A DNA stretch of 64,000 nt from Psychromonas ingrahamii 37 (GTDB lineage: Bacteria > Pseudomonadota > Gammaproteobacteria > Enterobacterales > Psychromonadaceae): positions 186,001 to 250,000 of the forward strand of contig NC_008709.1 of assembly GCF_000015285.1 (NCBI RefSeq). Reading direction: 5' to 3'. The position numbers were made by a program, and so were the translations under genes. Below are positions 1 to 19,802 of the stretch, in pieces (the stretch's first letter is position 1; the number at the start of each line of letters is the position of its first letter). A model generated the notes under the pieces. It made no database searches. It had not been told where the DNA came from and saw only the letters and a list, made by a program, of their open reading frames with translations.

Positions 1-2
1 GT

Positions 3-68: not shown

Positions 69-169
69 GTAATAATAAAATTTTTTAATAGATGATTGCA
101 AGAAAATTAGGCAACAACAATACATTTAAAAAACGTATACATTACTTATAAATATGAAGGGTTAATATT

Positions 170-3792: not shown

Positions 3793-3945
3793 AGTATGTT
3801 TTATCTCATAATGCTCCTAAATTGAGAGAATGTTGCTTGGTGTTAACTGAGCATTGAAAAAAATACTCTTAATTTCACATAACCCCGTTATATAACACTT
3901 CAGAAGGCTACCTAAATGGTGGTTTTTTGTATCTACCCATACTGA

Positions 3946-4155
3946 TCAACAATATATCTTAGGTATATCATGCCATTTGATTGTGTATTGCGGTGTTAAA
4001 AATTGTCGGCGCATAGCCCACTTTTCATCGATTCCTTGACTGGCGAGTAGCGCGGTATCAGTACCGTATTTTTGATTAATATTATCCAGCACTTTCACTA
4101 ATCTATTATCACTTTTCTATTCGCTAGCAGCCAGTCGCATAGAGGATTCAATAAT
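3946..4155 (-). pseudogene. umuC: Remnant of umuC 3' end (DNA polymerase V)
   Basis: Translation of the minus strand gives an interrupted but recognisable UmuC C-terminus: RLVKVLDNINQKYGTDT, then WAMRRQFLTPQYTIKWHDIP, ending TGA at 3946-3948. This resembles the DUF4113 tail of UmuC (INxxYG ... Wxm+R..LSPxYTT+W.dlP). An in-frame TAG lies upstream of it, and the rest of the gene (about 350 residues) and umuD are absent. The fragment sits directly downstream of the helicase stop codon, so a deletion probably fused the two. The family call is from memory of the motif. Confidence 0.6.
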
Positions 4156-4161
4156 CATCAA

Positions 4162-5559
4162 CTATATCGGGCTAAACGCTTCAATCAGTTTTTCTCTAAA
4201 GCCACCAAAAGATTCAAGATAAGCAGGGGTATAGTTTTTTTTATTTTCTGATGGTGCATCGTTTAAATTGTCCGAGAAAGCTCCATCATCGAATAATGAC
4301 ATCATTAATGGTGGTTTCAAGTCAGTTGAAGATGAAGCTGATTTTTTATTAGCAGTAGTTATATCAAATTGCTTAGCAATAGCATTACCGCGTACTAAGA
4401 CATTAGAATCAGGCAATTCTTGATCTATTCGGTGGGCAAATATACTTAACTTTTCTTCAGCAAAAGTGAACAACCAAGCCTCCTGATTTACAGCCTCATT
4501 TACTCTTAAAATTCGACCTAAAACTTGTCTGAAATACAGCTCAGTTTTAACCCGGCTTAAATGGCAGCAAACCTGTAATCTGGGTATGTCCGTACCTTCT
4601 GCAACCATGCCAACACTGACAATCCACTCTGTATTACAGAAACGAAAATGTTTGATTCGTTCAGCTGCATCCGGCTCTTTATATGTCACAATAACGGCGG
4701 TTTGCTGGAACTGTTCAGTGAGCATTTTCAATATCTGCTGTGCATGTTCCACCGATGAAGCAACAATGAGTCCGCCTGCATCTTGGTTAAACTGCCTGAT
4801 TTCAGCGAGTTTATTACAGCCTTTTTGCAAGATATATTGAATAACTACCTCATGACAGATTAAATCCTGATAAGAAATTAAAGGTGCTTTTAATAAATCA
4901 TGCAGTGAGTTAAAGACTTTCGTTTCTTGCTCTTTGGTCGTCACTGATATTTCTTCGTTATCAATTAAAACGATTTTGGGGTTTCTGCAAACGCCATCAT
5001 CGACAGCTTGTTGTAGTGAATAGGTGTAATCACATTGAATTTTATTATCGGGATCGCTGTAATTAGCAAGCGCAATGGGGATGAGATCCGATCGCCAAGG
5101 AGTCCCGGTTAGCGCTAAAGTATACGCAGCCTGTTCTTGAATGTGTTGCACTATATCCTGCCCCCAGGCGTTCGCATCATCAAATGAGGAGCCTGAGCAG
5201 TGATGGATCTCATCAAACACCACTAACACTCTATTATTCTTAATAATCTTCCAGTTGTCTTCGTTAAAAAACCGCATGTTCTGATAGGTATAAGAGCAAC
5301 CAATAGCGCCAATAACACCATCGAAATTACAATTGAGTCGACGTGCAAAGGTATTCTTAATCCCTTCAGCCACAGTAATCGATGGCGAGAAACATAAAAC
5401 AAAATCTATTTGCTTTGTGTCAAACAAATATCCTGCAACTTCAGCGGCTAATACGGTTTTCCCGGAAGCGGGTGTTGCTAAACATAAAAAGTGCTTACTG
5501 ATTTCTAAATAATGATTTTTTGCTGTGGTTAAACATTCTTGTTGCCAAGCTCTTAGCAT
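4162..5559 (-). CDS. SF2 DEAD/DEAH-box helicase-like protein
   Basis: 465 residues. Motifs in order: Walker A ATPASGKT (about 29-36), motif II DEIHH (about 116-120), motif III LTGTPWR, motif V VAEGTDIPRLQ, motif VI QVLGRILR. This is the two-RecA core related to type III restriction Res subunits and RadD/Irc3-type helicases, but no nuclease domain is visible. The C-terminal 90 residues are low complexity (KKSASSSTDL...SEN). The start overlaps the stop of the upstream small gene by 7 bp, so the two are co-transcribed and probably cotranslated. A defence or DNA-repair role is likely; exact function unknown. Confidence 0.8.
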   Translation of the reverse strand: MLRAWQQECLTTAKNHYLEISKHFLCLATPASGKTVLAAEVAGYLFDTKQIDFVLCFSPSITVAEGIKNTFARRLNCNFDGVIGAIGCSYTYQNMRFFNEDNWKIIKNNRVLVVFDEIHHCSGSSFDDANAWGQDIVQHIQEQAAYTLALTGTPWRSDLIPIALANYSDPDNKIQCDYTYSLQQAVDDGVCRNPKIVLIDNEEISVTTKEQETKVFNSLHDLLKAPLISYQDLICHEVVIQYILQKGCNKLAEIRQFNQDAGGLIVASSVEHAQQILKMLTEQFQQTAVIVTYKEPDAAERIKHFRFCNTEWIVSVGMVAEGTDIPRLQVCCHLSRVKTELYFRQVLGRILRVNEAVNQEAWLFTFAEEKLSIFAHRIDQELPDSNVLVRGNAIAKQFDITTANKKSASSSTDLKPPLMMSLFDDGAFSDNLNDAPSENKKNYTPAYLESFGGFREKLIEAFSPI

Positions 5560-6122
5560 GGTTGATATCCCGTGACCGTATAACCCAGTAATTTTTGTAA
5601 CGCATGCACTTTGCCAAGAAGTTGGACGGATTGATTTTTAGTTTGCAGTTGGTGCTGCTGAAGTTTTTCTTTTAATTCCGGAAAGCGACTAGAAAGGCGC
5701 TTGTATTCATTTACTTCTTCAATGCTTGCGTTTAAATCAATTTCATAAGTCATCAGCTCTTTTTCTAGCAAGGCTTTGTAATTGATGGTTTTAGGCGCTT
5801 GCTTAATGATTTTTGGAGAAGAACTTTTCTTTTGTTTATCACCCCGTTTCATCGGAACAATCGTAGAGGCAAAGAACTTCTCTGTTTTTGAATATAAAAC
5901 ATTTTTTATTCCGTCATCAACAAGGTCCGTTCGCTTTAATAGTCCTTTATCTACACCACGTAATAATTGACGGTAGATAAATTTTCTAGCCTCTGTTGAA
6001 TCCGTAAATTCAGCATGTTCATGCAATAGAGCGTCTTTAGCTGCTATCACAGAGAAGTCATTCATTTGCTTTATCACCAAAAGAGAATGCAAAAAAACAT
6101 TCATATTAACTTTCTGACTCAT
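5553..6122 (-). CDS. Small helicase-partner protein, possibly VspR-like regulator
   Basis: 189 residues, first gene of the helicase operon. Residues 1-75 look like a winged-helix region (EARKFIYRQLLRGVDKGLLKRT...LYSKTEKF). Residues 110-170 are predicted coiled coil (ALLEKELMTYEIDLNASIEEVNEYKRL..FPELKEKLQQHQLQ). The pattern recalls the VspR family of Vibrio pathogenicity-island regulators, but I could not check this. The gene overlaps the helicase start. A palindrome at 6172-6187 lies about 50 bp upstream of its start and probably controls the operon. It could be a DNA-binding specificity subunit for the helicase. Confidence 0.65.
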   Translation of the reverse strand: MSQKVNMNVFLHSLLVIKQMNDFSVIAAKDALLHEHAEFTDSTEARKFIYRQLLRGVDKGLLKRTDLVDDGIKNVLYSKTEKFFASTIVPMKRGDKQKKSSSPKIIKQAPKTINYKALLEKELMTYEIDLNASIEEVNEYKRLSSRFPELKEKLQQHQLQTKNQSVQLLGKVHALQKLLGYTVTGYQPC

Positions 6123-6171
6123 TATTAGACCTTTATTAAAACAAGCTGATTATTTCTTGTGTGACTGGATT

Positions 6172-6187
6172 GCTCTGCAAGCGGAGC
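6172..6187. promoter_or_regulatory. Operator copy 1 upstream of helicase operon
   Basis: GCTCTGCAAGCGGAGC: 5-bp arms (GCTCY/GGAGC) around a 6-bp spacer. It matches the two copies near the XRE gene and lies about 50 bp upstream of the minus-strand operon start. Probably a binding site for the XRE regulator encoded at 6455. Confidence 0.6.
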
Positions 6188-6387
6188 AATTATTCATTAG
6201 TTACTCTGGAATATCAATAGTTAAAATCAGGGTAAATCCAGAAATCACAAGTCAGTTTTCATATTTCATCTTTAACCTTAAAGCATCTTCGTTAACTGCT
6301 TCTTGTTTCAGATATACGAAAAAAGTAGCTATATCTTTGTAAGTTATTCAGTACTAAGAATTAAATAATTATCATCTATCTTTAATT

Positions 6388-6403
6388 GCTCCTTAAGCGG
6401 AGC
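6388..6403. promoter_or_regulatory. Operator copy 2 upstream of XRE gene
   Basis: GCTCCTTAAGCGGAGC: perfect 5-bp arms with 6-bp spacer, followed 7 bp later by a half site GCTCTGCGAG at 6411-6420. Same sequence family as the sites at 6172 and 6434. Confidence 0.65.
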
Positions 6404-6433
6404 ATTTTTTGCTCTGCGAGATGGGAAGATGAC

Positions 6434-6449
6434 GCTCCACTAACGGAGC
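6434..6449. promoter_or_regulatory. Operator copy 3 overlapping XRE ribosome site
   Basis: GCTCCACTAACGGAGC: perfect arms, 6-bp spacer. Its right arm (CGGAGC) also supplies the GGAG Shine-Dalgarno sequence for the ATG at 6455, so protein binding here would block the gene's own expression. Confidence 0.65.
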
Positions 6450-6454
6450 AGTAA

Positions 6455-6679
6455 ATGAATACCATTGGTAAAAAAATTCGAGAAATTCGTAAGCAACGAG
6501 GATTAACACAAGAGCAGTTGGCTGCCGCATGCTGTTTGTTAGGTTTTGATCTTAGTCGTAGTACGTTAGCTAAAGTTGAATCTCAAAATAGGCAGGTAAC
6601 AGATTATGAAATTAGATATTTTGCTCAAGCATTAAAAGTGAGTGAAGGAGATTTTTTTATAAATAGCGAGCAAAAATAG
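6455..6679 (+). CDS. Small XRE/Cro-CI family DNA-binding regulator
   Basis: 74 residues, essentially one HTH_3 domain: IGKKIREIRKQRGLTQEQLA (helices 1-2), then SRSTLAKVESQNRQVTDYEI (recognition and following helices). No effector domain. It is divergent from the helicase operon, and three matching palindromes occupy the region between them, one overlapping its own ribosome site. I infer autoregulation and repression of the helicase operon, a common arrangement for defence modules. It could instead be a controller (C) protein for the restriction locus downstream, since the hsdM remnant follows 150 bp later on the same strand. Confidence 0.8.
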   Translation: MNTIGKKIREIRKQRGLTQEQLAAACCLLGFDLSRSTLAKVESQNRQVTDYEIRYFAQALKVSEGDFFINSEQK

Positions 6680-6830
6680 TTACACTGTAACTATTTTGTG
6701 GCGTAGAAGTACCGATTTAACCCTTTTCTTAGTACTCCTCCAACTTCTGAAACTCCTCCAAATCAGCATTTGGTATCAAATATTTAATTATTTCTATTTT
6801 GGTTTCGCCTGATATTTTTTATTTTAAGTT

Positions 6831-7517
6831 TTGGTAAACAAACGACCCAATGTATTACACACCAATACATTGTCTGAAAACCTACAAGACATTCAACCCA
6901 GTAATCAACACAGCATAATACTGGCAAATCCACCCTTTGGCGGTAAAGAGCGCAAAGAAGTACAACAGAACTTTCCGATACAAACTGGAGAAACCGCATT
7001 TTTGTTTTTACAGCACTTTATTAAAATGCTGAAACCCGGTGGCCGCGCCGCCATTGTCATTAAAAACACCTTTTTAAGTAATACCGACAACGCCGCCATT
7101 GCCCTGCGTAAAGAACTATTGGAAAACTGTAATCTACATACGATACTCGACTGCCCTGGCGGCACTTTTATAGGTGCGGGTGTAAAAACCGTAGTGTTAT
7201 TTTTTACCAAAGGTGAACCCACGTTAAACACATGGTTTTACGAGCTTAATGTAGGCCGTAATATGGGGAAAACTAATCCACTGAACGACAACGATTTAGC
7301 CGAATTTATTGAATTTCAAAAAAGTTTTGCTGATTCAGATAAATCTTGGTCATTAGCGGTGAGTGATATAAATCAAGCCACCTATGACTTGTCGGTTAAA
7401 AACCCAAATATAGAAGAAGCCGCACCATTACGTGAGCCTAAAGTCATTATTGAAAATATTATCGCGCTAGATAAAGAATCAGAGGCTATTTTAGCTAAGA
7501 TTCAGGGATTACTGTAA
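6831..7517 (+). pseudogene. hsdM: Truncated type I methyltransferase subunit HsdM
   Basis: 228 residues corresponding to the C-terminal half of HsdM, which is normally about 480-520. Catalytic motif IV NPPFGG is present near residue 34, and the following N6-adenine methylase core can be followed (LKPGGRAAIVIKNTFL, DCPGGTFIGAGVKTVVLFF). The N-terminal helical domain and the SAM-binding FxGxG motif I are missing; no trace is seen in the 150 bp upstream. The reading frame begins at a TTG without a clear ribosome site. It is next to hsdS (1-bp overlap), so this was an hsdMSR operon. Methylation is very probably lost. Confidence 0.85.
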
Positions 7518-8719
7518 TGGAATGGAAAACAGAAAAACTGGGTAACGTTTGTGAAATTATTAAACGTGGTATTGCACCGAAATATGTTGATGAAGGTGGT
7601 ATATGTGTAATTAACCAAAAGTGTATTAGAGATCATACTGTTAATTATTCATTAGCAAGGCGTCATAATCTAATCATAAAAAGTGTCAATGAAGAGCGAT
7701 ATGTTCAAGTTGGTGATGTATTAATTAATTCAACTGGAACAGGTACCCTAGGGCGAGTTGCTCAGGTGAGAAATATGCCTATAGAGCCTACAACTGTAGA
7801 TACACATGTAACTATTGTAAGACCTAAAAACGGTTTATTTCATAACGACTTCTTTGGTTATATGCTCATTAAGATCGAGGAAGAGATTACTTCAGCTGGA
7901 GAAGGTGCAAGCGGTCAGACTGAATTAGCAAGAACTAAACTACAAAATGATTTTTTCGTTTCATACCCTGATTCAATCCAAGAACAAAAACGCATTGTGG
8001 TACTGCTCGACACCGTGTTTGCCGACTTAGAACAAACCCGCACAAAAACCGAACAAAACCTAAAAAATGCCCGCGAGTTATTCGACAGCTACTTACAACA
8101 ATTATTCAGTAAAAAAAGCGAAGGATGGGTTGAGAAAACATTAAGTGAAATTGCACATGTAGGTACCGGGGGAACCCCGCTAAAATCAACAATTGGATTC
8201 TGGGGGGGAGACATTCCTTGGTATTCTTCTGGTGAGTTAAACGACACGTATACATTAGCTTCAAAAAATAAAATTACAGAAGTAGGGTTAAGCGGATCTA
8301 ATGCGAAATTATTCCCAAAAGGCTCGTTGTTAATAGGTATGTATGACACAGCAGCTTTAAAAATGTCAATTTTAGATCGCGATGGGACATTTAACCAAGC
8401 TGTAGCGGGTGTTAAACCGAACCCCAAAATAAATTTAGAATTTATACTTCATTCAATTAACGTTATTAAGCCAGAGTTATTAAAGCTTAGAAGAGGCGTC
8501 CGTCAAAAAAATCTCAATCAAAGTAAAATTAAAAATATACCAATTAGGTTACCAACAATTGCAGAACAAATAAAAATTGTCGCTGAAATTAATGATCTAG
8601 AAGAAAAAACTAATTTATTGGTAAATATTTATAGTCAAAAAATAACTTCAATAGACGAACTCAAAAAATCGATCTTACAAAAAGCCTTTAGTGGAGAGTT
8701 AAGCACAGTGGCTAAGTAA
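7517..8719 (+). CDS. hsdS: Type I restriction-modification specificity subunit HsdS
   Basis: 400 residues with the usual two-half layout. TRD1 covers about 1-150 (WKTEKLGNVCEIIKRGIAPKY), then a conserved central helix (QEQKRIVVLLDTVFADLEQTRTKTEQ), TRD2 from about 200 (WVEKTLSEIAHVGTGGTPLK..FWGGDIPWYSSGEL), and a distal helix (IAEQIKIVAEINDLEEKT...LKKSILQKAFSGEL). It recognises the bipartite DNA target for the methylase and nuclease. The gene is complete. It overlaps the hsdM fragment and is followed by hsdR 36 bp later. TRD sequences are AT-rich compared with the conserved helices, usual for exchanged TRDs. Confidence 0.92.
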   Translation: MEWKTEKLGNVCEIIKRGIAPKYVDEGGICVINQKCIRDHTVNYSLARRHNLIIKSVNEERYVQVGDVLINSTGTGTLGRVAQVRNMPIEPTTVDTHVTIVRPKNGLFHNDFFGYMLIKIEEEITSAGEGASGQTELARTKLQNDFFVSYPDSIQEQKRIVVLLDTVFADLEQTRTKTEQNLKNARELFDSYLQQLFSKKSEGWVEKTLSEIAHVGTGGTPLKSTIGFWGGDIPWYSSGELNDTYTLASKNKITEVGLSGSNAKLFPKGSLLIGMYDTAALKMSILDRDGTFNQAVAGVKPNPKINLEFILHSINVIKPELLKLRRGVRQKNLNQSKIKNIPIRLPTIAEQIKIVAEINDLEEKTNLLVNIYSQKITSIDELKKSILQKAFSGELSTVAK

Positions 8720-8755
8720 TCACCGGTAAATAATTTTATAACACAGGTAAGTGTC

Positions 8756-11338
8756 ATGAATAGAAACGAATCTGAAACCCGCGCTGACTTAATCTCGCCA
8801 AAATTGGCCTTAGATGGCTGGGGAACCACTGAGCGCAGTATTATTCGCCGTGAGTTCGGCATTACCGCAGGCCGTATTTTAGGGGGTGGTAAACGAGCCT
8901 CAAGCCTGAGTAGTGATTATGTTTTAGAATTCCAAGGCCGAAAACTTGCCGCCGTTGAAGCTAAAAGAGAAAGCTTAAGTTATACAGAGGGTGTTCGCCA
9001 AGCGAAAGACTACGCTCAACGTTTACAATGCCGTTTTGCCTATGCCACCAACGGGCATGACATTTACCAAATAGATATGCTAACGGGTTTTGAGCAGTTA
9101 GTAGATAACTACCTAAGCCCAGCCGACATGTGGCGCTTGTGCTTCGAACCCGTCACTGGAAAAACAGAGCCTGACTATACTGCCACATGGCGGACACGTT
9201 TTGCACAAATACCCTTTGAATTTAAAGGTGACTGGCAACCTCGTTATTACCAAGAAAACGCCATTAACCAAGCATTAGAAGCCATAGCGTTAGGTAAAGA
9301 CCGCATACTACTTGCTCTTGCTACAGGCACGGGTAAAACCTGTATTGCCTTTCAAACCGCATGGAAGTTATTTCACAGTCGTTGGAGTTTACAAGCGGCT
9401 AAAAACCCCAGTAATGCTAAAAAACGCCCTCGTATTTTATTTTTGGCTGACCGTAATATATTAACCAAACAAGCCTTTAATGACTTTGGTGCTTTTGGCG
9501 AAGATGCCGTGGTGCGTATTACCCCGAGTGAAATTAAAAAAGCCAAAGGTGTACCTAAAAACGCCAGTATCTTTATGGCTATTTTCCAAACCTTAATGAC
9601 AGATTCGGCTAGCAACCCAACTAACGACAGTGATGAGGAAGAATTGCCGGAAGACGAAGACTACAGCCTACCTATAGTTACCGACACCAGTAATTGTAAT
9701 TTCAGACAATACCCCGAAGACTTCTTCGATTTTATTATTATTGATGAATGTCACCGTGGCGGTGCCAATGACGAAAGCTCATGGCGCGATATTCTTAACT
9801 ATTTTGCGCCTGCTGTGCAATTAGGTTTAACCGCGACACCAAAGCGTACTGACAATGTCGACAGCTATAAATACTTTGGTGAACCCGTTTACAGCTACAC
9901 ATTAAAAGAAGGGATCAACGACGGATTTTTAACGCCCTTTAAGGTGTATCCAATTGTCGGCACGATGGACGAATACCAATATACCCCGGGAGATGCGGTG
10001 ACGTTTAAAGGCGAACCCGAAGCAGGCCGAGTATATAAAGAAGGTGACTTTAACCGCATCATCACTATGCCACAGCGCGAACAAAAACGTGTGCACTATT
10101 GGATGGATCACATCAACCCACATGATAAAACCATCGTATTTTGTGGCACACAAGAACACGCGGGCATGGTGCGTGATTATATTAATCAATACGCAGTGCA
10201 AAAGGGTTGGACAACCAACCCAACGTATTGTGTACGTATTACCGCTAACGATGGCGCGGCGGGTGAGAATGATTTAAGAACCTTCTGCGACAACGAAAAA
10301 ACCATACCAACCATATTAACTACGTCGCGTAAGTTATCCACTGGCGTAGATGCTCGTAACGTACGTAACATCGTACTAATGCGGCCCTGTAATAACATGA
10401 TTGAGTTTAAGCAGATTATTGGTCGTGGTACGCGACTGTACGACGGAAAATCATTTTTTACCGTGTATGATTTTGTAAAAGCACATCATAATTTTGCAGA
10501 TCCAGAATGGGATGGTGAACCATTACCTCCTAAAGAAAAACCAGACGAACAACCTTGTGATATTTGTAATGTCAGCCCATGCATTTGCATCTGTGAGGTT
10601 TGTGGTTTTAACCCATGTAACTGTAAAGACGACACACCAAACGAACCCTGTGGCGAATGTAATCAATCTCCTTGCCAGTGTCTAACTGAGCCTTGTAATA
10701 ACTGCGGTGATACACCTTGTAGCTGTAATACGGATGACGACGATGGGAATACGGGCAGACCAGATAAAATATTCATTACCCTAACCGACGGAAAAGTACG
10801 CCAAATACAACACATGAAAAGCGTATTGTTTATGGGTGCCGATGGTGAAATGCTCACCGCAAAACAATTTGTAGAACAACTGTTTGGTGACTTACCACGT
10901 TTTTTTGGTAACGAAGATGAATTACGCCAAATATGGAGCAATCCAAGCACACGCGAAAAGCTATTAACTGATTTGTATGAAGCGGGTTACGATGATGAAA
11001 AACTCGATAGCATGAAAGACATTATCGATGCCAAAGACAGCGACGTATATGACCTATTAGCCTTTGTAGCCTACGCAAAAGACACCCATACCCGTAAAGA
11101 ACGTGTCGCAACGGCGAAACCGGGTATATCTAGTGAGTTCACCTACAAACAAGTCGAGTTTATCGAATTCATATTAGATAAATACATAGAAGACGGCGTA
11201 CAAGAATTGGCAGCTAAAAAAATGCGCAGTTTGGTAGAACTTAAATACAACACCATAAGCGATGCCGCAGCAGAGTTTGGTTCACCGGCAGCAATACGTG
11301 ACACGTTTATCGGCTTTCAGAAGCATTTGTATCAGTAG
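8756..11338 (+). CDS. hsdR: Type I restriction endonuclease subunit HsdR with Cys-rich insert
   Basis: 860 residues. An N-terminal PD-(D/E)xK nuclease (DYVLEFQGRKLAAVEAKRE) is followed by the SF2 translocase: Walker A ATGTGKT, DECH box (IIIDECHRGG), LTATPKRTD, and QIIGRGTRL. Residues about 599-657 hold four CxxCx4CxC units in tandem (for example CDICNVSPCIC, CGECNQSPCQC), 16 cysteines in all, then an acidic linker and the C-terminal helical region that docks on the M2S core (about 670-860). All catalytic motifs look intact. ATG with AGGTAAG upstream. With hsdM broken, the enzyme probably cannot assemble on DNA. Confidence 0.92.
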   Translation: MNRNESETRADLISPKLALDGWGTTERSIIRREFGITAGRILGGGKRASSLSSDYVLEFQGRKLAAVEAKRESLSYTEGVRQAKDYAQRLQCRFAYATNGHDIYQIDMLTGFEQLVDNYLSPADMWRLCFEPVTGKTEPDYTATWRTRFAQIPFEFKGDWQPRYYQENAINQALEAIALGKDRILLALATGTGKTCIAFQTAWKLFHSRWSLQAAKNPSNAKKRPRILFLADRNILTKQAFNDFGAFGEDAVVRITPSEIKKAKGVPKNASIFMAIFQTLMTDSASNPTNDSDEEELPEDEDYSLPIVTDTSNCNFRQYPEDFFDFIIIDECHRGGANDESSWRDILNYFAPAVQLGLTATPKRTDNVDSYKYFGEPVYSYTLKEGINDGFLTPFKVYPIVGTMDEYQYTPGDAVTFKGEPEAGRVYKEGDFNRIITMPQREQKRVHYWMDHINPHDKTIVFCGTQEHAGMVRDYINQYAVQKGWTTNPTYCVRITANDGAAGENDLRTFCDNEKTIPTILTTSRKLSTGVDARNVRNIVLMRPCNNMIEFKQIIGRGTRLYDGKSFFTVYDFVKAHHNFADPEWDGEPLPPKEKPDEQPCDICNVSPCICICEVCGFNPCNCKDDTPNEPCGECNQSPCQCLTEPCNNCGDTPCSCNTDDDDGNTGRPDKIFITLTDGKVRQIQHMKSVLFMGADGEMLTAKQFVEQLFGDLPRFFGNEDELRQIWSNPSTREKLLTDLYEAGYDDEKLDSMKDIIDAKDSDVYDLLAFVAYAKDTHTRKERVATAKPGISSEFTYKQVEFIEFILDKYIEDGVQELAAKKMRSLVELKYNTISDAAAEFGSPAAIRDTFIGFQKHLYQ

Positions 11339-11350
11339 AAAAAGGCTGTA

Positions 11351-11473
11351 ATGAAAACGGGTTTTAGAGAAGGGTATTATTTAAATATCAATGAAAAAGA
11401 AACACTGGCAATAAGAGATGCTCTGGTTGCAGTACTGAATGATATTAGCACCACCAGTGCCATACCAATTTAA
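11351..11473 (+). pseudogene. Small ORF, probably frameshifted hypothetical gene
   Basis: A 40-residue frame (MKTGFREGYYLNINEKETLAI...) starts 12 bp after hsdR. Another frame continues from about 11467 with protein-like sequence (LILDGDKLIILEPSIIENDYV) up to about 11545, where it runs into the convergent HAD gene. Together they suggest one ~65-residue protein broken by a frameshift near 11465. I recognise no family. Confidence 0.35.
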
Positions 11474-11541
11474 TATTGGACGGGGATAAGTTAATAATTT
11501 TAGAACCTTCAATAATAGAAAATGATTATGTAAAACTACTG

Positions 11542-12213
11542 CTATCTAATATCAGCCAGAATATGACGATAATCAGTAATAAATGGGTAGCCTTTTAGTT
11601 GTTCTTTTTGCAGGGGGGGGCGTTGAGAGTCTGGATTTGCAACTGCAAGGAGGTACTTAATACCGAAACTCTTAGCGCTGTCTAAAATGGTTAAACTATC
11701 ATCTACAAATAAGGTGCTTTCACTATCAAAATTAAGATCAGCTTGTAGTTTCTTCCAAAGAGTTTGAGATTCTTTTGTTACACCATATTGATGAGTAGAT
11801 ATTAGGCGGTCAATATGGCTATCTAATGCGGTTTTTTCTACTTTCAGTGAGAGGCTATTAGGGTGTGCGTTAGTCACTAATACAACCTCTTTTTTAGCTG
11901 CTTTTAGTGCATCTAAAAATGGAATTGTATCAGGTCGTAATGATATTTTATCTTCAATTTCCCTCTTTAAGTCAGTAATAGGCAAACTTAGCTTTTCTTC
12001 CCAGTAATCTAGGCAGTACCATTCTATTTTCCCTGCTACATTATTGGTTTCATTTTTTAAATATGACTTTGCCTGAACCAGTGTAAGATTATGATATTCT
12101 GCGTAGCGCATAGGTAAGTGCTCACGCCAAAAAAATGAGTCAAAGTTAAGATCAAGCAATGTTCCATCCATGTCTAGCAACACTGTTTTAATGTTATTCC
12201 AATTTAATTCCAT
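11542..12213 (-). CDS. yrfG: HAD-family GMP/IMP nucleotidase YrfG-type, island copy
   Basis: 223 residues, close to the family's usual ~222. All four HAD motifs are present: nucleophile DMDGTLLDL (about 15-23), motif II VTNAH, motif III Lys in GVTKESQTLW, motif IV LFVDDSLTILD. YrfG enzymes dephosphorylate GMP and IMP in the cytoplasm. The gene follows the recombinase operon by 78 bp on the same strand. It is a diverged homologue of the 5'-truncated copy at 19197 on the opposite strand (for example VAGKIEWYCLDYW against VAGSLDWYCYDYW). I infer a spare copy carried by the element to replace the target gene it destroys. Confidence 0.85.
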   Translation of the reverse strand: MELNWNNIKTVLLDMDGTLLDLNFDSFFWREHLPMRYAEYHNLTLVQAKSYLKNETNNVAGKIEWYCLDYWEEKLSLPITDLKREIEDKISLRPDTIPFLDALKAAKKEVVLVTNAHPNSLSLKVEKTALDSHIDRLISTHQYGVTKESQTLWKKLQADLNFDSESTLFVDDSLTILDSAKSFGIKYLLAVANPDSQRPPLQKEQLKGYPFITDYRHILADIR

Positions 12214-12291
12214 CTTTTATTCCATAGTCATTACAAGTAATTAATTATAAATTAAAATAAGCTTTTGAATATTAACTCTTTTCTTTTGTTA

Positions 12292-12819
12292 CTATATCAA
12301 CCCTAGCTTGCTCTTAACATCAAGTGACATGTTATCAAGAAGTCGCTGGTACACTCCATCTACAGTTTGAAGTTGAGTCTCTTCATGATTTTTCAATAGG
12401 TCTTTGTGTTCGTTAACTAAATCTTCTTTATTTCTACTCTGCAATCCATTTTTCACAGTTAGAATACGCTTTTCTTTAGCCTCTTCTAATTGCTTATTAA
12501 GTTGATTAAAAAATCTAAGTAATGATTCAGAGTAAGCAGTGGAGTGAAACAAGGGTTGAGCTGTCTTTCCTGTTGCTCGTGCCACTTCAGATTTTTTAAT
12601 CTGATAGTTTGATTTTATAATGTATTGTGATTTTAGACCATGCTTTTTAATATAAGCCTTCTTTTTTTTATTTAGCAAGAGTAATGCATTGTAAGCATTA
12701 AGTGAGCTATTTTCGCTACTTACCCACTTGGGGATTTTCTCTTTTTCTACTTCCTCCAACGGCTCATTCGATAACTCATCTGCATCTAAAAATTGCTCTA
12801 GGTAACCATCATCCATCAT
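12292..12819 (-). CDS. TnpC/GmtX-like small accessory protein of recombinase operon
   Basis: 175 residues. The middle (about 70-110) has a helix-turn-helix-like stretch (KKSEVARATGKTAQPLFHS) as in TnpC-type helpers of Tn554-like elements (VAR.AGVSR..LY), followed by a long coiled coil (LNKQLEEAKEKRILTVKNG to about 155). The N-terminus is acidic. The gene overlaps the upstream recombinase by 4 bp (ATGA). In Tn554, TnpC helps set insertion orientation and efficiency; in Gamma-Mobile-Trio elements the small partner is GmtX. Which family applies here is not determined. Function by position is fairly safe, name is not. Confidence 0.6.
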   Translation of the reverse strand: MMDDGYLEQFLDADELSNEPLEEVEKEKIPKWVSSENSSLNAYNALLLLNKKKKAYIKKHGLKSQYIIKSNYQIKKSEVARATGKTAQPLFHSTAYSESLLRFFNQLNKQLEEAKEKRILTVKNGLQSRNKEDLVNEHKDLLKNHEETQLQTVDGVYQRLLDNMSLDVKSKLGLI

Positions 12820-15569
12820 TTCGCTCCATCTATAGTTTTTTGTGCAATATCTATGCTCTCTTGTAAGTGGTTGATGAACTTGTTGTACTTTTCGTCTTGG
12901 CTGTTATTTCGTAATTTTTTAATCTGTGAAATAGCTAATTGTAAAACAGGAAGGTGCTGTATTTTGATAAATGCAGGTAACTCAGGGTTACGACATGCGG
13001 CCACATCAATACTTGTGTAGACCACAATACCGATGTAATTTCCCTCAGTGATGTCTGCATTGATACACCCTAGGCATAACTTAGGGGATGCATTACGGCG
13101 TTGAGGGATCCCATTTTGCGAGCATTTAGCTCTTTCCTCTGTTCCAGATCTTAATAGGCATGTTACCCATGGATTTGGTTTTATAGAACCTATACGGTCG
13201 CTGATTTTTTGGGACATTTTAATGTAGTCTTCATTTGAAGCTATATTAGTTATATTAACGACTTTGTTCAAATAACTATCAAATCCACCGGTATAGTTTC
13301 GTTGGTCATCCTTGAGTGCAAGTAAGTGTTGACGGACAATATCGTTGATCACATTTCGTTGTGAAATTTCATACACGGCACTCATTTCTTTATCTCGTAG
13401 ATATGCCATAAAAAAATCATCGTTTAAATGTTTAAAGTTAGCGCGTATAAACCTGCCAACATTACCACGGTAGCGACGTAATACCGCTTCAGCCCATATG
13501 TGGCGAAGTGCATGAGGGGTAGGATGAGTTGCACGTTGTAAAAATTCTTCTTTGATATGTTTTACTGTTGCTTGGTCCAGTGTAATTCCTGACTTGAGTG
13601 ACATTTTAGTATCATCAGACAAGTATTTTTCCAGTAAAGCCCGCTCTTCTGTTTTAAGTGAACCTTCTCGGTAACCTTTAAGTTTTTTACCAAATGATTG
13701 TTGGTTGACTTGATTAGCCAAAAGGTAGCAAGGGAGTTCCTCACGCAATTGATCTCGTAAGCCCTGTAGTGCTTGAGTTTGGCTCTGTTGTAAGTTATGG
13801 TTTTTCGATAATTTCACTAGCTCGGATTGCTGATGATTCGAAAGTGTCGTGTCCTTTTGCAACACTATCAGTTTTTCTAATTCATCTAACTCTTCAAACA
13901 AGCTGTAATAATCAATAAAACCTTGCCAGATTCTACTGACCCGATTTGTAATAACCTTGTTAATCGAGGCCTTTTTCATTGCTGAATGCAAACAAGGCTT
14001 ATTAATACCTGACTGATTTAATGTAGCTAATTGTGTCGCTAATAAATAGCCAGATAAAGTGATTTCACGGTTAAGAGGTGTATTTTTACTGGTTTTTGGT
14101 ACTATCCATTTGACATGAAATTGATAGGGTGTGTAGGTGCTATCAAGAACATCTTTATTCACACTAATATGGATATTGTTGAGTGCGAAGCCAAATTCGG
14201 TGGCTCGCCACCCTGTTAATGCAACAAATAAGGTTACACCTGCTGATTCAACATTCATTAAAGCTCGTTCTAATTTTCTAACTCCGATAGTATGTGTAAT
14301 TTTATTAAATCGTTGTAGCTTATCGCACATCGAATGGTGCTCTTTAAAGAAAGATACCACGCTATTGATATCAATTGGTGTAGTTTGAGTGACACTATCT
14401 ACGATTCCATTAAAATCAGATTCAGACCACTGTGGTTTTAGCTTTGGATGCGTTGATCTTAATGATGCTATAAATTCCTTTATAATGTTTAAGCGTGATT
14501 TACCATTTTTACCATAGTAACGAGCAAATAACATTGATCTAACAAATTCTTGATTATCAAAACGGTTTTCTGGTAAACCTAATTTGACTATAATGCTATT
14601 AATAGTATCCAGTTTAAAGGCATTATTCTGTTGTATTACAGCATAATAATGCTTAAAAAAAAGGCAGTGTACAATCTCAACTATACCCTTTAGGGTTGGG
14701 AGAGATGTTTTTTTTATTTCCCTTCCTCTTATTTCATTACTAGGTATACCCATAAGAATTTCTGAGCATACTAGCTGAATAACATCGGTATATTTATACC
14801 CCATTTGCCTACTTACTTCAGTTGACATTTCACTCATGGTTAGCCGGCAAGCTGTCGCATAAGAAATCTGTTCTTCAAACGTTTGAGAGCAAAAATCAAT
14901 ATAATGACGGCCAGTGTCGAGACCGAGAAAATTAAATGACCCTCCTTTTTGATAATCAGAAAAAGTAATGCCTAATACATTTAAACATGAGTTGTTAATC
15001 GCATCTTTGTATTTATTATAATGTAACCGAGGTAATAGAGAGGGACAGCCATAAATTTTTAACGTTTGAAGCAAAAGTTTTATGTTTAAAAAGTGTAATC
15101 GAGTGCGATAAGCCGGTGGATAAAACCGTAAATTTAGTCCTTCCTGATTTAGGTTATAGCTTAGTAGGTATGTAAAAAAGTCCTCTAATTCACTTTCAGC
15201 AATATAGGTGATTTGTTTGTTTGCAAGGTAACTAAACAATAAAGATAATACATCTAAAATTTTTATTGACGATTGATAGGTTACTTTATCTTCGTGCTGA
15301 GATAGCCAGAGTAGCTTAGCAAACTCTTTTGTAGTTACACGTATTAAATCACTTTTAGAAGAAAGTGAAACTTCCCGTACAAACTCCGTGTAAGGGAGGT
15401 TGAAATGGTTGAAATTGATTGATATTTTTTTCTCTCGGTCGGTGAAAATCCATAGATCATCGGTAATAGTCACACTGTTAATCGGTGATAATTGCTGCAA
15501 TAGATCATCTAGCATGTCCATAAAATTTTGATAGGCAGAAGTCTTAGCATGTAAATCAGTTTCTCTCAT
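12816..15569 (-). CDS. Large tyrosine recombinase (TnpB/GmtZ-like)
   Basis: 917 residues. The N-terminal ~430 residues match nothing I know and are mostly helical. The tyrosine recombinase core follows: box I Arg in LFVALTGWRATEFG (about 445-460), box II HALRH (near 675), a downstream His in NFKHLNDDFF and candidate nucleophile Tyr in DDFFMAYL. The C-terminus has a cysteine cluster (CLLRSGTEERAKC, LCLGC, AACRNPE) that may bind zinc, as in the tail of TnpB-type proteins. It is 1 bp from the 776-residue protein and overlaps the small gene by 4 bp. Probably an active strand-transfer subunit of a multi-recombinase element. Confidence 0.75.
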   Translation of the reverse strand: MRETDLHAKTSAYQNFMDMLDDLLQQLSPINSVTITDDLWIFTDREKKISINFNHFNLPYTEFVREVSLSSKSDLIRVTTKEFAKLLWLSQHEDKVTYQSSIKILDVLSLLFSYLANKQITYIAESELEDFFTYLLSYNLNQEGLNLRFYPPAYRTRLHFLNIKLLLQTLKIYGCPSLLPRLHYNKYKDAINNSCLNVLGITFSDYQKGGSFNFLGLDTGRHYIDFCSQTFEEQISYATACRLTMSEMSTEVSRQMGYKYTDVIQLVCSEILMGIPSNEIRGREIKKTSLPTLKGIVEIVHCLFFKHYYAVIQQNNAFKLDTINSIIVKLGLPENRFDNQEFVRSMLFARYYGKNGKSRLNIIKEFIASLRSTHPKLKPQWSESDFNGIVDSVTQTTPIDINSVVSFFKEHHSMCDKLQRFNKITHTIGVRKLERALMNVESAGVTLFVALTGWRATEFGFALNNIHISVNKDVLDSTYTPYQFHVKWIVPKTSKNTPLNREITLSGYLLATQLATLNQSGINKPCLHSAMKKASINKVITNRVSRIWQGFIDYYSLFEELDELEKLIVLQKDTTLSNHQQSELVKLSKNHNLQQSQTQALQGLRDQLREELPCYLLANQVNQQSFGKKLKGYREGSLKTEERALLEKYLSDDTKMSLKSGITLDQATVKHIKEEFLQRATHPTPHALRHIWAEAVLRRYRGNVGRFIRANFKHLNDDFFMAYLRDKEMSAVYEISQRNVINDIVRQHLLALKDDQRNYTGGFDSYLNKVVNITNIASNEDYIKMSQKISDRIGSIKPNPWVTCLLRSGTEERAKCSQNGIPQRRNASPKLCLGCINADITEGNYIGIVVYTSIDVAACRNPELPAFIKIQHLPVLQLAISQIKKLRNNSQDEKYNKFINHLQESIDIAQKTIDGAK

Positions 15570-15570
15570 A

Positions 15571-17901
15571 TTACATTCCTAAATGAGAAGTGAAATGGGG
15601 AGGAAGATGTGCGGCATATTTTAGATAAAGAGCCTTTCCCTTCTTCATGGATTCCATTGAAAATTTCTTTTCATGCAGTAATGTTGAAACATATTCAGCC
15701 ATAGGTAGTACTGTAAATAATAAGAACTCAGGCGATTTCGATGCGAGTGACTTGTATTTTTTACTCACTTCTGCCTCGTAATGATAAAACTTCATCACTG
15801 TTTCAGGGGCATCAACTAAAAGTATCACATCAGCTAGTTCTGTATGATGGACCTTATTTGATTCTATAAACCCTAATTCATCTACGCGCCCACTCTTTTG
15901 TCCTGTTATTGTTTTAATCCGATTTAACAGATCGGTTTTGTGTGAATTTATTAACTCAGCAGCTTGCGTAAATTCACTATTATAAGACTGGATTTGTGCT
16001 TTAGATGGGCTGAACACATTAATATACATATCTTGCATTACAGCCCGTGTTACCCGCCCGCAGCTATTGAGCCATTGTAGGCTAGCCTCGGTCCGATAAT
16101 TTTTTTGCTCAGTTTCATTAGAGTGAGAATTGTAGTTTTGCATCATTGTGGGGCTGAAAGAATCTGATCGAGCGTGAATAGCACTATTTTTAATTGCTGA
16201 AAGACCAAATATATTTTTATTACAGTAGGTCTCACACCTTTCCTGCCATTTCTCCCGGCTAGCCTCAGTAGTAGTACTAGATTTCCTACTTTGGTCAACA
16301 CGGTATTTTTCATAATCGACACCGCTCCTTATAATAAGATTAAAAGCTTCAATAAAGACTGATGTTGTATTATGTTTTTGTAGCGCATGGTTTATGTCTA
16401 AATTGATGGTAGATGTTGCAAGCAACGAAATTAAAGGTGCTAATAATCCCTGTTGATATGTTGTCATACCGCCATCATTATATGATGTAGTTAAAGCACC
16501 TAAATCAATTTTCCTGTTCGCTGTATTGTCATTAATAAAACTCAATACAGCCTTCCCCATTGTGCTATTGGCTTTGATATCTTTTAGGTAATGCGTAGCT
16601 TGCGATCGGCCTTTAAAATAACTGCTAGATATATGTGTAATGATGCCATTCCTGCGTTTCAAAAAGTTAAAATCACTTAACTTTAGCTTTGCAATATCTG
16701 AAGGTTGAACACTTTGGTAGGCCATTAACCATTGAAATAGCAGATGCTCTGCCTTACAAACAGGCAAAATACCTTTTTTCTCGCTATGAGCATACTCTGA
16801 AATAGCATATAAAAATTGATGTGAGAACAGCCACGATTCAGTAATGCTAAAGCGATCCGTGTTTCGTTTGTCCTTATCTACTATAAACCTTTCAACGTAT
16901 TGTTCTTTATGAAACCTAGCTAAGGAATCCCCAATAGAATTACTTTTACACCATGAATGAAGAATAATTTCAAATGCTATGCCTAAATATTTATTCTGGC
17001 AGGGGCTTTTTTTGTAAGTTTTTTGTAGGTAAGCCAATTGCTCAGTGATATGAGGGTAGATATAACAGAGCCAACGCTTACGTTTATCTTTAAATTCTTC
17101 AGCTGAAAAATCTGCTTTTTTGGGGGCTGGCATTGGAATCAGTATCTGATGAGTAGTTATATTATTCTCTTTAAAGAATTCGATTAGTGCGTATTTAGCC
17201 TGCTGTATACTGTAAAGTGCTACTTCAGCAGTAATACGGAGTGATAAACTTAATGCTTTCGGCGATGCCAATCTATTAAATAGCTCATTACCAATGCCTA
17301 TATCATCTCTACGCAGCCAACTATGAAAAGAAAACCAGTCTGTTAGGGTATATGATTCTTGCTTCTCTGAGGGGGCTGCTTTTGTTTTATTAAGCACCCC
17401 AAGGTATTTATATTGTTCTGCACTTAATAGGTTAGAGAATGGCTCGTAGGCAATGCTAAAATAAATAAATTTTCTTATGCTTTTAAGACCGGTAGATTGA
17501 GGCTTTACTCCCATTTTTTTTACACGAAACTCTTCGTAATCTTTAAATATTCTAGTTCTGTTATTTTTGGTGATAGTTCTTTCATTGAGATATTCAATAA
17601 AACTTACTACAGTTCGACGGTATATAACGCGATTTGATATAGCCTCTCTGTCTGTGAAATATATAATATAAAAAGCAGTATAAAGAGCCGAAAAAATAAG
17701 TTTTTTATATTTACAATTTATATCACTTAACCTAACCGTTTTTGCGACGTTTTTCCTCATCGCGGGGATAGTGAATTGTGTGCTTTCTGGGATAAATAGA
17801 GGCCTAATGACACCTTGGTTATTATTCCACTCTGTAATAATTTGTTGGGACTTTATATCGTTTTCATCGGACCTAGTGGTGTCATCCATATCTGTAGTCA
17901 T
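15571..17901 (-). CDS. Recombinase-like protein of mobile element, catalytic residues not evident
   Basis: 776 residues, second gene of the operon, overlapping the first by 20 bp. A region at about 385-480 looks like the start of a tyrosine-recombinase catalytic fold (LLFQWLMAYQSVQPSDIAKLKLSDF, then the strand HISSSYFKGRSQ). The expected box I Arg is replaced by Gln-Ser-Val-Gln and I find no HxxRH box or obvious nucleophile Tyr. It may be a structural, catalytically dead partner. Tight coupling with two true recombinases implies a role in the same complex. Tn554 and Gamma-Mobile-Trio elements have comparable large partners. Confidence 0.6.
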   Translation of the reverse strand: MTTDMDDTTRSDENDIKSQQIITEWNNNQGVIRPLFIPESTQFTIPAMRKNVAKTVRLSDINCKYKKLIFSALYTAFYIIYFTDREAISNRVIYRRTVVSFIEYLNERTITKNNRTRIFKDYEEFRVKKMGVKPQSTGLKSIRKFIYFSIAYEPFSNLLSAEQYKYLGVLNKTKAAPSEKQESYTLTDWFSFHSWLRRDDIGIGNELFNRLASPKALSLSLRITAEVALYSIQQAKYALIEFFKENNITTHQILIPMPAPKKADFSAEEFKDKRKRWLCYIYPHITEQLAYLQKTYKKSPCQNKYLGIAFEIILHSWCKSNSIGDSLARFHKEQYVERFIVDKDKRNTDRFSITESWLFSHQFLYAISEYAHSEKKGILPVCKAEHLLFQWLMAYQSVQPSDIAKLKLSDFNFLKRRNGIITHISSSYFKGRSQATHYLKDIKANSTMGKAVLSFINDNTANRKIDLGALTTSYNDGGMTTYQQGLLAPLISLLATSTINLDINHALQKHNTTSVFIEAFNLIIRSGVDYEKYRVDQSRKSSTTTEASREKWQERCETYCNKNIFGLSAIKNSAIHARSDSFSPTMMQNYNSHSNETEQKNYRTEASLQWLNSCGRVTRAVMQDMYINVFSPSKAQIQSYNSEFTQAAELINSHKTDLLNRIKTITGQKSGRVDELGFIESNKVHHTELADVILLVDAPETVMKFYHYEAEVSKKYKSLASKSPEFLLFTVLPMAEYVSTLLHEKKFSMESMKKGKALYLKYAAHLPPHFTSHLGM

Positions 17902-19105
17902 TTATTTCCTCGCTTGCTTCAAAGCTTTCTTTTATATGACAGCTACGAATATAGTTTTTTGTCGTTGTAGGGGCTGATTTACTCGACCCACTGTGTCCCA
18001 GTAGAGCCGCTACGGCAAGGTATACTTGAGATGTTGTAGTCACATTATCAATGGCGATATTCCACTGCTTTGAGAAAAAATAAAACTTATCAGTAGCAAA
18101 GCTATGTCTCAAAATATGATGAGTATGCCCTTTTTCTAGAAGCTGGCCATAAGCTGGTAACAATCCTTTTTCTTGGATTAACATTACTTTGTTACGCACA
18201 ATGTTAAATATCTTAGTGGCTCGTGCGGCTGCGATAGGTTTGGCGCGTGTGGAATTGGAGTCGTTTAAGAAAAAACTATCACTATCGGATTCAGGGCGCT
18301 CCATTTCGTAATATTCTTTAAATCTCCTGAGTAAATCGCTGTGTATATATACTTTGCGAGAGCTTCCGCCGCTGTGTCGTTTTGCCTTTGAGAAACGCCC
18401 TTGCAAATAATATTCAAATTCGGATTTCTCTGGGTTATCTTCCATATCTTCAAACAGGGAAAGTAATCCTTTATGCGTTTTAGTTCCTATGCGGAAATCA
18501 TTTAATAAGAAGCCTTGGTTTTCTTTAGATCGTAAACCGCATTCCCCTCCTGTACGTAATAATAATTCATCACGAATAGACTCTGTATTGTGATAAAGGA
18601 TATTGCGTAATTCTGGCGTGAAATATTTAACACTAGTGCGTTTTTTGGTGTTGGAACGAGCTGTATTTCGAAGCGCAGGCCTAATGCGTAAGACTTTGGG
18701 ATAAGGAATAATCCCTGTGTGATAGAGGTAATTATAGTATGAAGTTAATGCTTGAATACTCTGTTTTACAGATGCTTCGCCTAGGCTATTTTCCTCAATA
18801 AGGATGTTGTTAACATAGTTATTCAGCAATTCGCTAGGTAGGTTTTGATGGGTCTCTATAGAAACAAATTCACTCTGATTGGAATAGAACTCTAGCCAAT
18901 GTAAAAACTGTTCTAGTCTATTTAAAATAGATGTGGATGTGGTTTTTTCAATTTGATTTTCAATAAGAATATTATTCTTATTTATCGCATAAACAATTAA
19001 ATTTTTAGTTAAAAAATTAGAGAAAAAGCAAGGCAATACGATAGGGCTAAGATCGTCTTTAGTAAATAACTTGCAACCATGATGTATAGAACTAAAACTC
19101 AACAT
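17882..19105 (-). CDS. Tyrosine recombinase / integrase (TnpA/GmtY-like)
   Basis: 407 residues, first gene of the operon. The N-terminal SAM-like core-binding domain is at about 50-140 (RLEQFLHWLEFYSNQ..SVKQSIQALTSYYNYLYHTG). Catalytic residues: Arg in TGGECGLRSKENQGF, Lys in the beta-hairpin region (KAKRHSGGSSRKVYI), box II HHILRHSFATDKF, LLGHSGSSKSAPTTTKNYI with the nucleophile Tyr. All pentad positions are present, so it should be active. It reads away from the junction with truncated yrfG, which lies 91 bp upstream of its start, the usual place for an integrase next to an attachment site. Confidence 0.88.
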   Translation of the reverse strand: MLSFSSIHHGCKLFTKDDLSPIVLPCFFSNFLTKNLIVYAINKNNILIENQIEKTTSTSILNRLEQFLHWLEFYSNQSEFVSIETHQNLPSELLNNYVNNILIEENSLGEASVKQSIQALTSYYNYLYHTGIIPYPKVLRIRPALRNTARSNTKKRTSVKYFTPELRNILYHNTESIRDELLLRTGGECGLRSKENQGFLLNDFRIGTKTHKGLLSLFEDMEDNPEKSEFEYYLQGRFSKAKRHSGGSSRKVYIHSDLLRRFKEYYEMERPESDSDSFFLNDSNSTRAKPIAAARATKIFNIVRNKVMLIQEKGLLPAYGQLLEKGHTHHILRHSFATDKFYFFSKQWNIAIDNVTTTSQVYLAVAALLGHSGSSKSAPTTTKNYIRSCHIKESFEASEEINDYRYG

Positions 19106-19196
19106 ACAAAACCTATTTATTTTTCTTAGGTTAAAGAATAGTTGTAGAACATAATTAAGTCAATACGATTTTAACTATAAATATGTGGGGTAACTT
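19106..19196. other. Element end: integrase promoter region and junction with yrfG
   Basis: This AT-rich 91 bp separates the integrase start from the point where yrfG homology resumes (TTGCTCGATTTA, codons LLDL). It must hold the integrase promoter on the minus strand and the right attachment site. An in-frame TAA at 19191-19193 closes any read-in to yrfG. The exact crossover cannot be fixed without the empty site. Confidence 0.55.
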
Positions 19197-19802
19197 TTGC
19201 TCGATTTACATTATGACAACCATTTCTGGATGGAGTATGTACCCAGTCAATATGCTAAGAAAGCGCATATTTCATTAGCACAAGCAGAGCATCATATGTC
19301 CGCGGAGTATGCAAAGGTTGCGGGAAGCTTAGATTGGTACTGTTATGATTATTGGAGTGCTACCCTAGGCTTAGATATCCATCAATTACAGTACCAAACA
19401 AAGCATAAAATTCAATTGCGCAGTGATACTCTGTGGTTTTTGGAATACCTGAAAAAGTTAAATAAACGGGTTATTATGTTAACCAATGCTCATCGTAGTG
19501 GCATAGCATTAAAGATGCAACAGTGTGAAATTACACATTACTTCGAAGCCATTGTTTCCAGTCATGATTATCAGATAGCGAAGGAAAACCGGACTTTTTG
19601 GCAAAAGGCTGCAGAGCAACATGGCGTCGATTTTAAGCAGTCTTTATTTATTGATGACAATGAAAAAATACTGCAGGTTGCACAGCAAGTTGGCGTTGCT
19701 TACTTACGCGGTATCAAAACGCCAGATAGCGAAAAACCTGCGCAAGAGATGCAATATTTTCAGAGTATTAACCTATTTTCTGAATTATTAATACAGGAAT
19801 AA
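19197..19802 (+). pseudogene. yrfG: Host yrfG (GMP/IMP nucleotidase), 5' end removed by insertion
   Basis: 201 residues from a TTG, matching YrfG from LDL onward. Motif II LTNAHRS, motif III region (IAKENRTFWQK) and motif IV LFIDDNEKIL are intact. The start codon and the nucleophile motif DMDGT are missing; sequence upstream is the mobile element and an in-frame TAA is 3 bp before the TTG. Without the nucleophile Asp the product cannot be a phosphatase even if translated. The gene is convergent with mrcA. The 5' half should lie at the other end of the island, outside the window. Confidence 0.85.

Follow-up and report, generated by a model that had tools for sequence, protein, structure and literature searches.

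A split yrfG and a diverged spare copy on an SE-like island of Psychromonas ingrahamii

Why should a genome hold two versions of yrfG, one broken at its active-site codons at the edge of a recombinase operon and the other complete and lying just beyond that operon? The question is raised by a stretch of 64,000 nucleotides, here called the window (G000:C1:186001-250000, window position 1 being genome position 186001), from the single-contig genome (4,559,598 bp) of Psychromonas ingrahamii 37. The answer that we consider probable is that an element built like the published SEs cut yrfG at its active-site codons and brings a diverged yrfG of its own, so that YrfG continues to be made in the cell, from the element's gene. 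Four observations carry this answer: the host gene is split, the site is undivided in a relative, the spare copy is foreign to the host gene, and related elements match their spare to the gene that they cut.

The divided host gene and the complete copy aboard

The 5′ piece of the host yrfG, comprising the first 17 codons and ending in GAC ATG GAT GGA ACA (D M D G T), lies outside the window at genome positions 158026-158076, beside nudE (157393-157947), and the rest of the gene starts 47 kb away at genome position 205197, its frame opening immediately 3′ of the DxDGT codons. The original prediction, made from the letters of the window, had stated that the host gene lost its start and DxDGT motif on the side of the operon, which agrees with a remnant that begins right after these codons; the element of about 8 kb that it implied has to be replaced by one of about 47 kb, the start of yrfG being found beside nudE. 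The island between the two halves spans approximately 158077-205196, or 47,120 bp (window base 19196 corresponding to genome position 205196), and about 28 kb of it extends past the left edge of the window. An empty site in a relative, proposed as a check together with the original prediction, is found in a sister genome of the same genus (G021), where an unbroken yrfG stands between nudE and mrcA at an undivided site. The remnant is 92% identical to this intact gene and still reaches 190.7 bits on the NF011564 GMP/IMP nucleotidase equivalog (cut-off 189). Its ratio of non-synonymous to synonymous substitution (dN/dS) against G021 is 0.115, as compared with 0.133 for mrcA and 0.05 for nudE, and because this value is like that of the intact neighbour mrcA, the break looks recent or, failing that, the remnant frame looks to be still constrained.

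The second copy (YrfG2) is the first gene past the operon, starting 78 bp after its last gene on the same strand. It had been described as a full-length, diverged YrfG with HAD motifs on the strand of the recombinases, and with its complete DMDGT and its family score (Table 1) this description stands. YrfG2 and the remnant share 81 of 218 aligned residues (37%), and their positions differ in a tree of 57 YrfG sequences (L029, L038 and L102, in which no frame was recognised, were omitted, and one genome is present twice): the remnant groups with its genus (starred), and YrfG2 falls among sequences from the order's other families (82-87 support, unstarred). A simple duplication of yrfG, which had already been doubted, is ruled out by this identity and these separate tree positions. 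The best matches of YrfG2 among 369 genomes of the class (57-59% identity) come from one family of the order (f7), in which the closest chromosomal operon is likewise found, the closest operon overall being that of a Shewanella plasmid. A search of the whole genome for further YrfG returned, besides the remnant and YrfG2, only one weak match (E=0.3), so that there is no second intact host yrfG. The structural part of the original prediction, with an element inserted into yrfG just past the DxDGT codons and a complete, diverged yrfG of different origin aboard, is upheld.

The operon (12292-19105, minus strand) comprises four overlapping or abutting genes for proteins of 407, 776, 917 and 175 amino acids (aa). 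What had been called a four-gene recombinase operon is indeed one of four genes, of which only those for IntA and IntB encode catalytic proteins, the 776-aa protein being without the catalytic residues and the 175-aa protein without a family. The order catalytic, non-catalytic, catalytic, small is kept in all ten operons that were aligned, and the R-K-H-R-H-Y set of IntA is complete in nine of them, H330 being replaced by Q in one. Against Pfam, NCBIfam, PADLOC and PHROG, the 776-, 917- and 175-aa proteins gave nothing over the cut-off; the alignment of the 776-aa family had no match among PDB sequences, and a structure predicted for the 776-aa protein from its sequence alone (mean pLDDT 33.4) was discarded.

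Both ends of the island show a split attachment site (attB), as judged from stub and remnant against G021, and the first set described below has both target halves at its six other loci as well. A presumed spacer of 6 bp, a length that was assumed and not derived, fits the junctions of the window and of four related elements (G241, G218, G342 and G174). In the window it reads TGCTCG or TTGCTC, with a register uncertain by 1, at the two Leu codons after DGT, and in G241 the presumed 6 bp are alike at both ends. A possible donor fingerprint in the window (TCCCTC or CCCTCG) matches attB at 4 of 6 positions, which is weak.

Matching of spare and target in related elements

Seven of 394 genomes of the order, the window's own included, and three of 72,556 plasmid records hold relatives of the 776-aa protein, and there was none among viral contigs or phage records; scans of genome contigs with the 776-aa and 407-aa proteins gave no relative either. 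A profile search of 369 genomes of the class, with at most two first-look candidates scored per genome, found only the window's element, and since this search did not pick out pSEA1, where two known SEs are located, all these counts are counts of close kin.

In G241, dgt is cut at HDIGHPPFG and a Dgt spare of 492 aa follows the fourth gene at a distance of 106 bp; dinB is cut after its DMDC codons in G218, G342, G174 and G250, with a complete DinB aboard; and in G312, trmL is cut after PNTGN, with a complete TrmL aboard. A full-length spare of the element's own target is therefore present in seven of seven chromosomal loci (yrfG, dgt, four dinB and trmL), both target halves being seen, and mismatched pairs of element and target gave 0 of 21 tblastn matches (E<=1e-3). 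The spares are 23-60% identical to the host copies; in the window and G241 they directly follow the operon, and in the other five they lie farther along the element. Operons of this kind at unrelated sites without yrfG, which the original prediction had named as evidence against itself, are literally what was found, the relatives sitting in dgt, dinB and trmL; the finding is informative all the same, since each of these relatives carries a spare of its own target in place of yrfG.

A second set was searched after this rule had been noticed: 395 genomes of the family of G241, 23 of which matched, giving 24 loci, 21 of them new. The paralog screen covered frames of at least 90 aa at E<=1e-6 and at most seven pairs per locus, so that short or very diverged spares could escape. 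The gene names in this set are our assignments from motifs unless a family search is named. In G963, G802 and G783, dgt spares about 80% identical to that of G241 stand right after the operon, the second host half of dgt being observed only in G783. A dinB spare with both host halves was seen in G1085, G1109, G898, G862 and G1019b, and in G1110 the target is a gene with a HEWF motif, the stub of which is 71% identical to a 271-aa gene after the operon, its second host half not being identified.

The dinB loci of both sets allow the history of a spare to be followed. In a tree of 21 DinB sequences (nine spares, nine host remnants and three others, with two long branches flagged), the spares form two clades (99/95 and 98/98), and the label changes between spare and host only twice, as compared with a mean of 7.1 after shuffling (0 of 500 shuffles as low). 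The spares of G1085 and G862 are near-identical and the dinB genes of their hosts are not. In this phylogeny, the DinB spares look like old passengers of the elements and not like captures from the present host.

Proposed explanation and its rivals

In the proposed course of events, the element would have entered by tyrosine recombination, probably across the 6-bp spacer, with the strongly conserved DNA for the yrfG active-site motif as its likely target. Insertion would part the start and DxDGT codons from the remaining yrfG, YrfG would then be supplied from the element's own complete diverged copy, and the relatives would act alike on dgt (HDxGHPPFG), dinB (DMDC) and trmL (PNTGN). We infer this route for the window's element, in which YrfG2 would be expressed and would compensate for the loss of yrfG. 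Published work on SEs describes copy-out movement without an empty site, 6 bp being carried along, and by analogy the element considered here may likewise leave no empty site. With the site never repaired, it would pay an element to bring a substitute for a useful gene that it breaks.

It has to be noted that a number of results weigh against this explanation. The C and C′ motifs of the window, in registers picked by eye, agree at 9 of 19 positions, which is as good in 7.8% of shuffles and alone not significant; the corresponding values are 11/19 in G241 (5.2%), 12/19 in G218 (<0.1%), 11/19 in G342 (0.6%) and 7/19 in G174 (26%). No YrfG match (E<=1e-5) was obtained in five of 23 genomes of the same genus (G012, G014, G016, G017 and G018), three of which are at least 99% complete, so that yrfG seems dispensable in the genus. 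In the second set, a spare was found in nine of the 21 new loci, with one clear absence and 11 loci scored neither way, which brings the pooled sets to 16 of 28 with a spare, one without and 11 scored neither way; moreover, the loci are not independent, spare lineages being shared among them. The clear absence is G1024, where dgt is cut and both halves are seen, with no Dgt between them at E<=1e-4. Elsewhere in this set, G778 has a truncated dinB at the far end and, just outside the intA end, a spare-type DinB with a short start; G1019a has a 3′ part of dgt, its other half not seen, and no spare in 54 kb; G1072 has a 3′ part of dinB at the contig edge and no spare in 32 kb; the 3′ part of an amidohydrolase-like gene in G805 has no pair; and no target was identified in G952, G988, G789 and G774. 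Stubs beside intA that look like hslR (RLDKWL) in G916 and G1028 and like trmL (IPPNTG) in G1055 point to further targets, at loci cut off by contig ends (L173, L174 and L209). Among plasmid relatives, that of Methylobacter (NZ_CP091425) is flanked by what we take, from annotation, to be a nuclease/helicase gene apparently in two parts, and the helicase half, used as the query, has no second copy in 52 kb; that of Marinobacter (NZ_CP152381) cuts an HNH gene and shows no spare over the searched 58 of its 217 kb. As these two plasmid relatives are without a spare in the parts searched, the rule of target and spare concerns, at best, chromosomal targets. A last point comes from the Vibrio element SE-6283 (Tn6283), which splits bcp and carries a bcp, for which its authors suggest complementation: growth of the bcp knock-out was faster, and not slower, than that of the wild type, and the bcp::Tn6283 strain, with a growth rate like that of the wild type, reached a lower final optical density (PMC5991714, PMC9345347).

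Separately from these points, the element of G1024 was seen to hold a 41% identical homolog of the upstream neighbour of dgt, an HD-domain protein that is YfbR-like by eye (L176, L193; oriented 22277-22879, 23429-24082).

As regards the kind of element, SEs are published as having the operon intA-tfp-intB-srap, the RHRY residues being present in IntA and IntB but absent from Tfp, and this order and distribution of residues is what the ten aligned operons show, apart from the one substituted IntA. In profile-profile comparison with a reference of SE-6283, SE-6945 (both of pSEA1) and six related plasmid operons (eight IntA, eight Tfp, seven IntB and seven Srap sequences), the probability was 98.3 for IntA and 90.3 for IntB, but 0.5 for Tfp and 3.1 for Srap, where SE groups find each other at 69-99.8. 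Since the second and fourth proteins are without detectable SE likeness in sequence, the elements are called a sister group here, and that of the window is treated as SE-like in its build, and not as a proven SE. It is improbable that it is instead a GInt, a class which also has three recombinase-type genes and a small one, 2.5-70 kb of cargo, often with restriction systems, and one pair of which stands at a duplicated target gene (PMC5385486): the GInt operon is ginA-ginB-ginC-ginD with the deficient protein (GinC) in third place (PMC5385486), whereas here the second protein is non-catalytic and the third complete in 10 of 10 operons, and the identity was rejected on this gene order, taking the published description as the dividing line.

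What remains to be weighed is why the spare is aboard. Islands carry many genes, and yrfG might merely happen to be among the cargo with no functional link, all the more as some elements have no apparent spare (SE-6945 on pSEA1, which has bla after its operon, the plasmid relatives and G1024); by a rough estimate, a cargo of 47 kb, or 1% of the genome, would include a given single-copy gene in about 1/100 of cases, and the match of spare and target in seven of seven loci against 0 of 21 mismatched pairs, with nine of 21 further loci, leaves such a coincidence strongly disfavoured and highly improbable. A replacement of the allele that serves no rescue, the element's own version benefiting element or cell through nucleotide pools, DNA repair or phage defence, would agree with YrfG, Dgt and DinB being nucleotide or DNA enzymes, with the divergence of the spares and the age of the DinB lineages, with the genomes of the genus in which YrfG seems not to be vital, and with the recA mobile element, which targets recA and protected E. 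coli from DNA damage (PMC4405046); however, TrmL, HslR and Bcp fit no single benefit, and we regard this alternative as rather unlikely. It is very unlikely that the gene resembling the target is kept for recombination itself, by providing the element with an attachment (att) sequence of its own. In favour of that idea, tgl of Tn552-II holds an att copy, a part in transposition being suggested by the authors who describe it (PMC12486829), and YrfG2 and the host yrfG are identical at 26 of 27 nucleotides across the site and share seven of eight synonymous codons there as compared with 24 of 67 elsewhere (P=0.004, uncorrected and taking no account of the several targets that were looked at); G021 also has seven of eight codons in common at the site, and eight other YrfG have 0-3 of 7-8. 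Chance, a shared need of an att sequence or exchange are possible causes of this identity. Against the idea, the DinB spares differ at the site (DMDA, DLDC and DLDS against DMDC of the host), as does the dgt spare. Replacement of the broken yrfG by the element's own copy is the explanation that we retain as probable. A wider version of it, offered tentatively as a possibility, is that the SE-like lineage practises obligate gene replacement, each subfamily being aimed at the active-site codons of one enzyme and carrying a long-resident version of it; as the site would stay unrepaired after copy-out movement, each insertion would be a permanent swap of the host's allele, on which the host would then depend.

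Cargo and known target-replacing elements

The other features of the island are collected in Table 1. Much of its left part reads as a hexuronate catabolism and transport cluster, comprising by eye KDPG aldolase, a sugar-acid kinase, glucuronate isomerase, fructuronate reductase, a TRAP transporter and mannonate dehydratase, so that the element may carry a metabolic trait. The elements of the window, G218 and G250 (L067:6643-8561; L069:2984-4992), which have different targets, share by eye a helicase and small-protein pair close to their core genes, possibly an accessory or defence module. Before hsdS stands a methyltransferase-like gene (window 6831-7517, plus strand) that by eye is without its N-terminal half, for which reason DNA modification by the type I system may be lacking. 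Within 170-3051, two pieces of a signalling gene of the PAS/GGDEF/EAL type have between them a transposase-like gene (window 414-1397, minus strand) that by eye resembles IS30.

Table 1. Island features, in window coordinates unless marked as genome positions
Feature	Position	Strand	Basis
Right-hand 19.2 kb of the SE-like island	1..19196	.	Positions of yrfG stub and remnant, G021 site
3′ remnant of host yrfG, 201 codons, without start and DxDGT	19197..19802	+	Open frame, NF011564
Junction next to intA, with C motif and presumed 6-bp spacer	19178..19203	.	Both junctions compared with G021 site
intA, tyrosine recombinase, 407 aa	17882..19105	-	R192 K240 H330 R333 H371 Y385; phrog_1 integrase E=8e-12
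Tfp-position gene, 776 aa, without catalytic set	15571..17901	-	Second gene in 10/10 aligned operons
intB, large tyrosine recombinase, 917 aa	12816..15569	-	R455 K492 H686 R689 H714 Y723, 10/10 aligned
Srap-position gene, 175 aa	12292..12819	-	Fourth gene in 10/10 aligned operons
Spare yrfG (YrfG2), 223 aa, DMDGT intact	11542..12213	-	NF011564, 267.6 bits
Type I restriction hsdS and hsdR	7517..11338	+	NF046051 EcoAI-type R subunit, 759.5 bits; hsdS by eye
ResIII-type helicase (465 aa) and 189-aa protein	4162..6122	-	ResIII in window and G218 copies
Hexuronate catabolism/transport cluster	genome 170-184 kb (L054:14407-18941 onward, L055:391-8401)		By eye

In the publications considered, spare copies of target genes are remarked singly (bcp, recA, tgl), and the match across yrfG, dgt, dinB and trmL, together with the DinB lineages, turns them into a testable rule. 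This rule bears on how elements avoid or exploit the damage that they do, could explain odd duplicated or truncated housekeeping genes in gammaproteobacteria, and offers a way to predict the targets of elements from their cargo; it also suggests that mobile versions now and then take the place of some core enzymes, a point of consequence for gene phylogenies. As far as a limited literature search shows, what is new are these targets, an SE-like group with unrelated-looking Tfp and Srap, and a match tested over several loci: yrfG as such a target was not found in the best 25 of 644 matches, and the main text of PMC10214605 has no match for yrfG, dinB, trmL or dGTPase, its 37 published SEs possibly holding cases.

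The principle itself is known already from SE-6283 with bcp, the recA mobile element and tgl of Tn552-II. The original prediction had recognised target replacement as known, though not for yrfG with these recombinases; the former holds, and it is the precedent of SE-6283 and bcp that it did not name. The element of the window belongs with these target-replacing elements in that it sits in a specific gene and has a complete, diverged homolog of it aboard. With SE-6283 it shares the gene order, the position inside a conserved chromosomal gene and a complete, diverged homolog right after srap on the same strand, at a distance of 114 bp for bcp as compared with 78 bp in the window and 106 bp in G241. 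The two differ in the target, bcp and not yrfG, in Tfp and Srap, which have no detectable relation to the window's proteins, and in size, 13.8-41.3 kb being in print for SE-6283-like elements as compared with the 47 kb of the island. As a side remark on that system, the fourth gene of SE-6283 (pSEA1, L149:21460-21957) is annotated as "bacterioferritin comigratory protein", a name that was probably borrowed from the adjoining bcp.

The recA mobile element of Vibrio cholerae S24 likewise uses a specific site, in recA, carries a divergent recA and has 9-bp terminal inverted repeats, but it is described with a phage integrase and XerS (PMC4405046). Tn552-II, a Tn554-like element of Staphylococcus, has a target-like gene after its tnpABC operon, for which "rescue" has been suggested, and carries a biased 7-bp att along (PMC12486829); it differs in a three-gene operon that is without a Tfp gene, in its Gram-positive host and in its target, a YolD-like or plasmid gene. 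GInts resemble the present elements in the four-gene operon at one end, in site specificity and in restriction cargo, and differ in the order of catalytic and deficient proteins; the cited description does not present a spare as cargo, though it includes a Pseudomonas aeruginosa pair at a duplicated nrd gene (PMC5385486). The closest published counterpart in gene order and in the placing of the spare is thus SE-6283, next to which the yrfG element would stand as a further case of a target gene probably replaced by the element that splits it.

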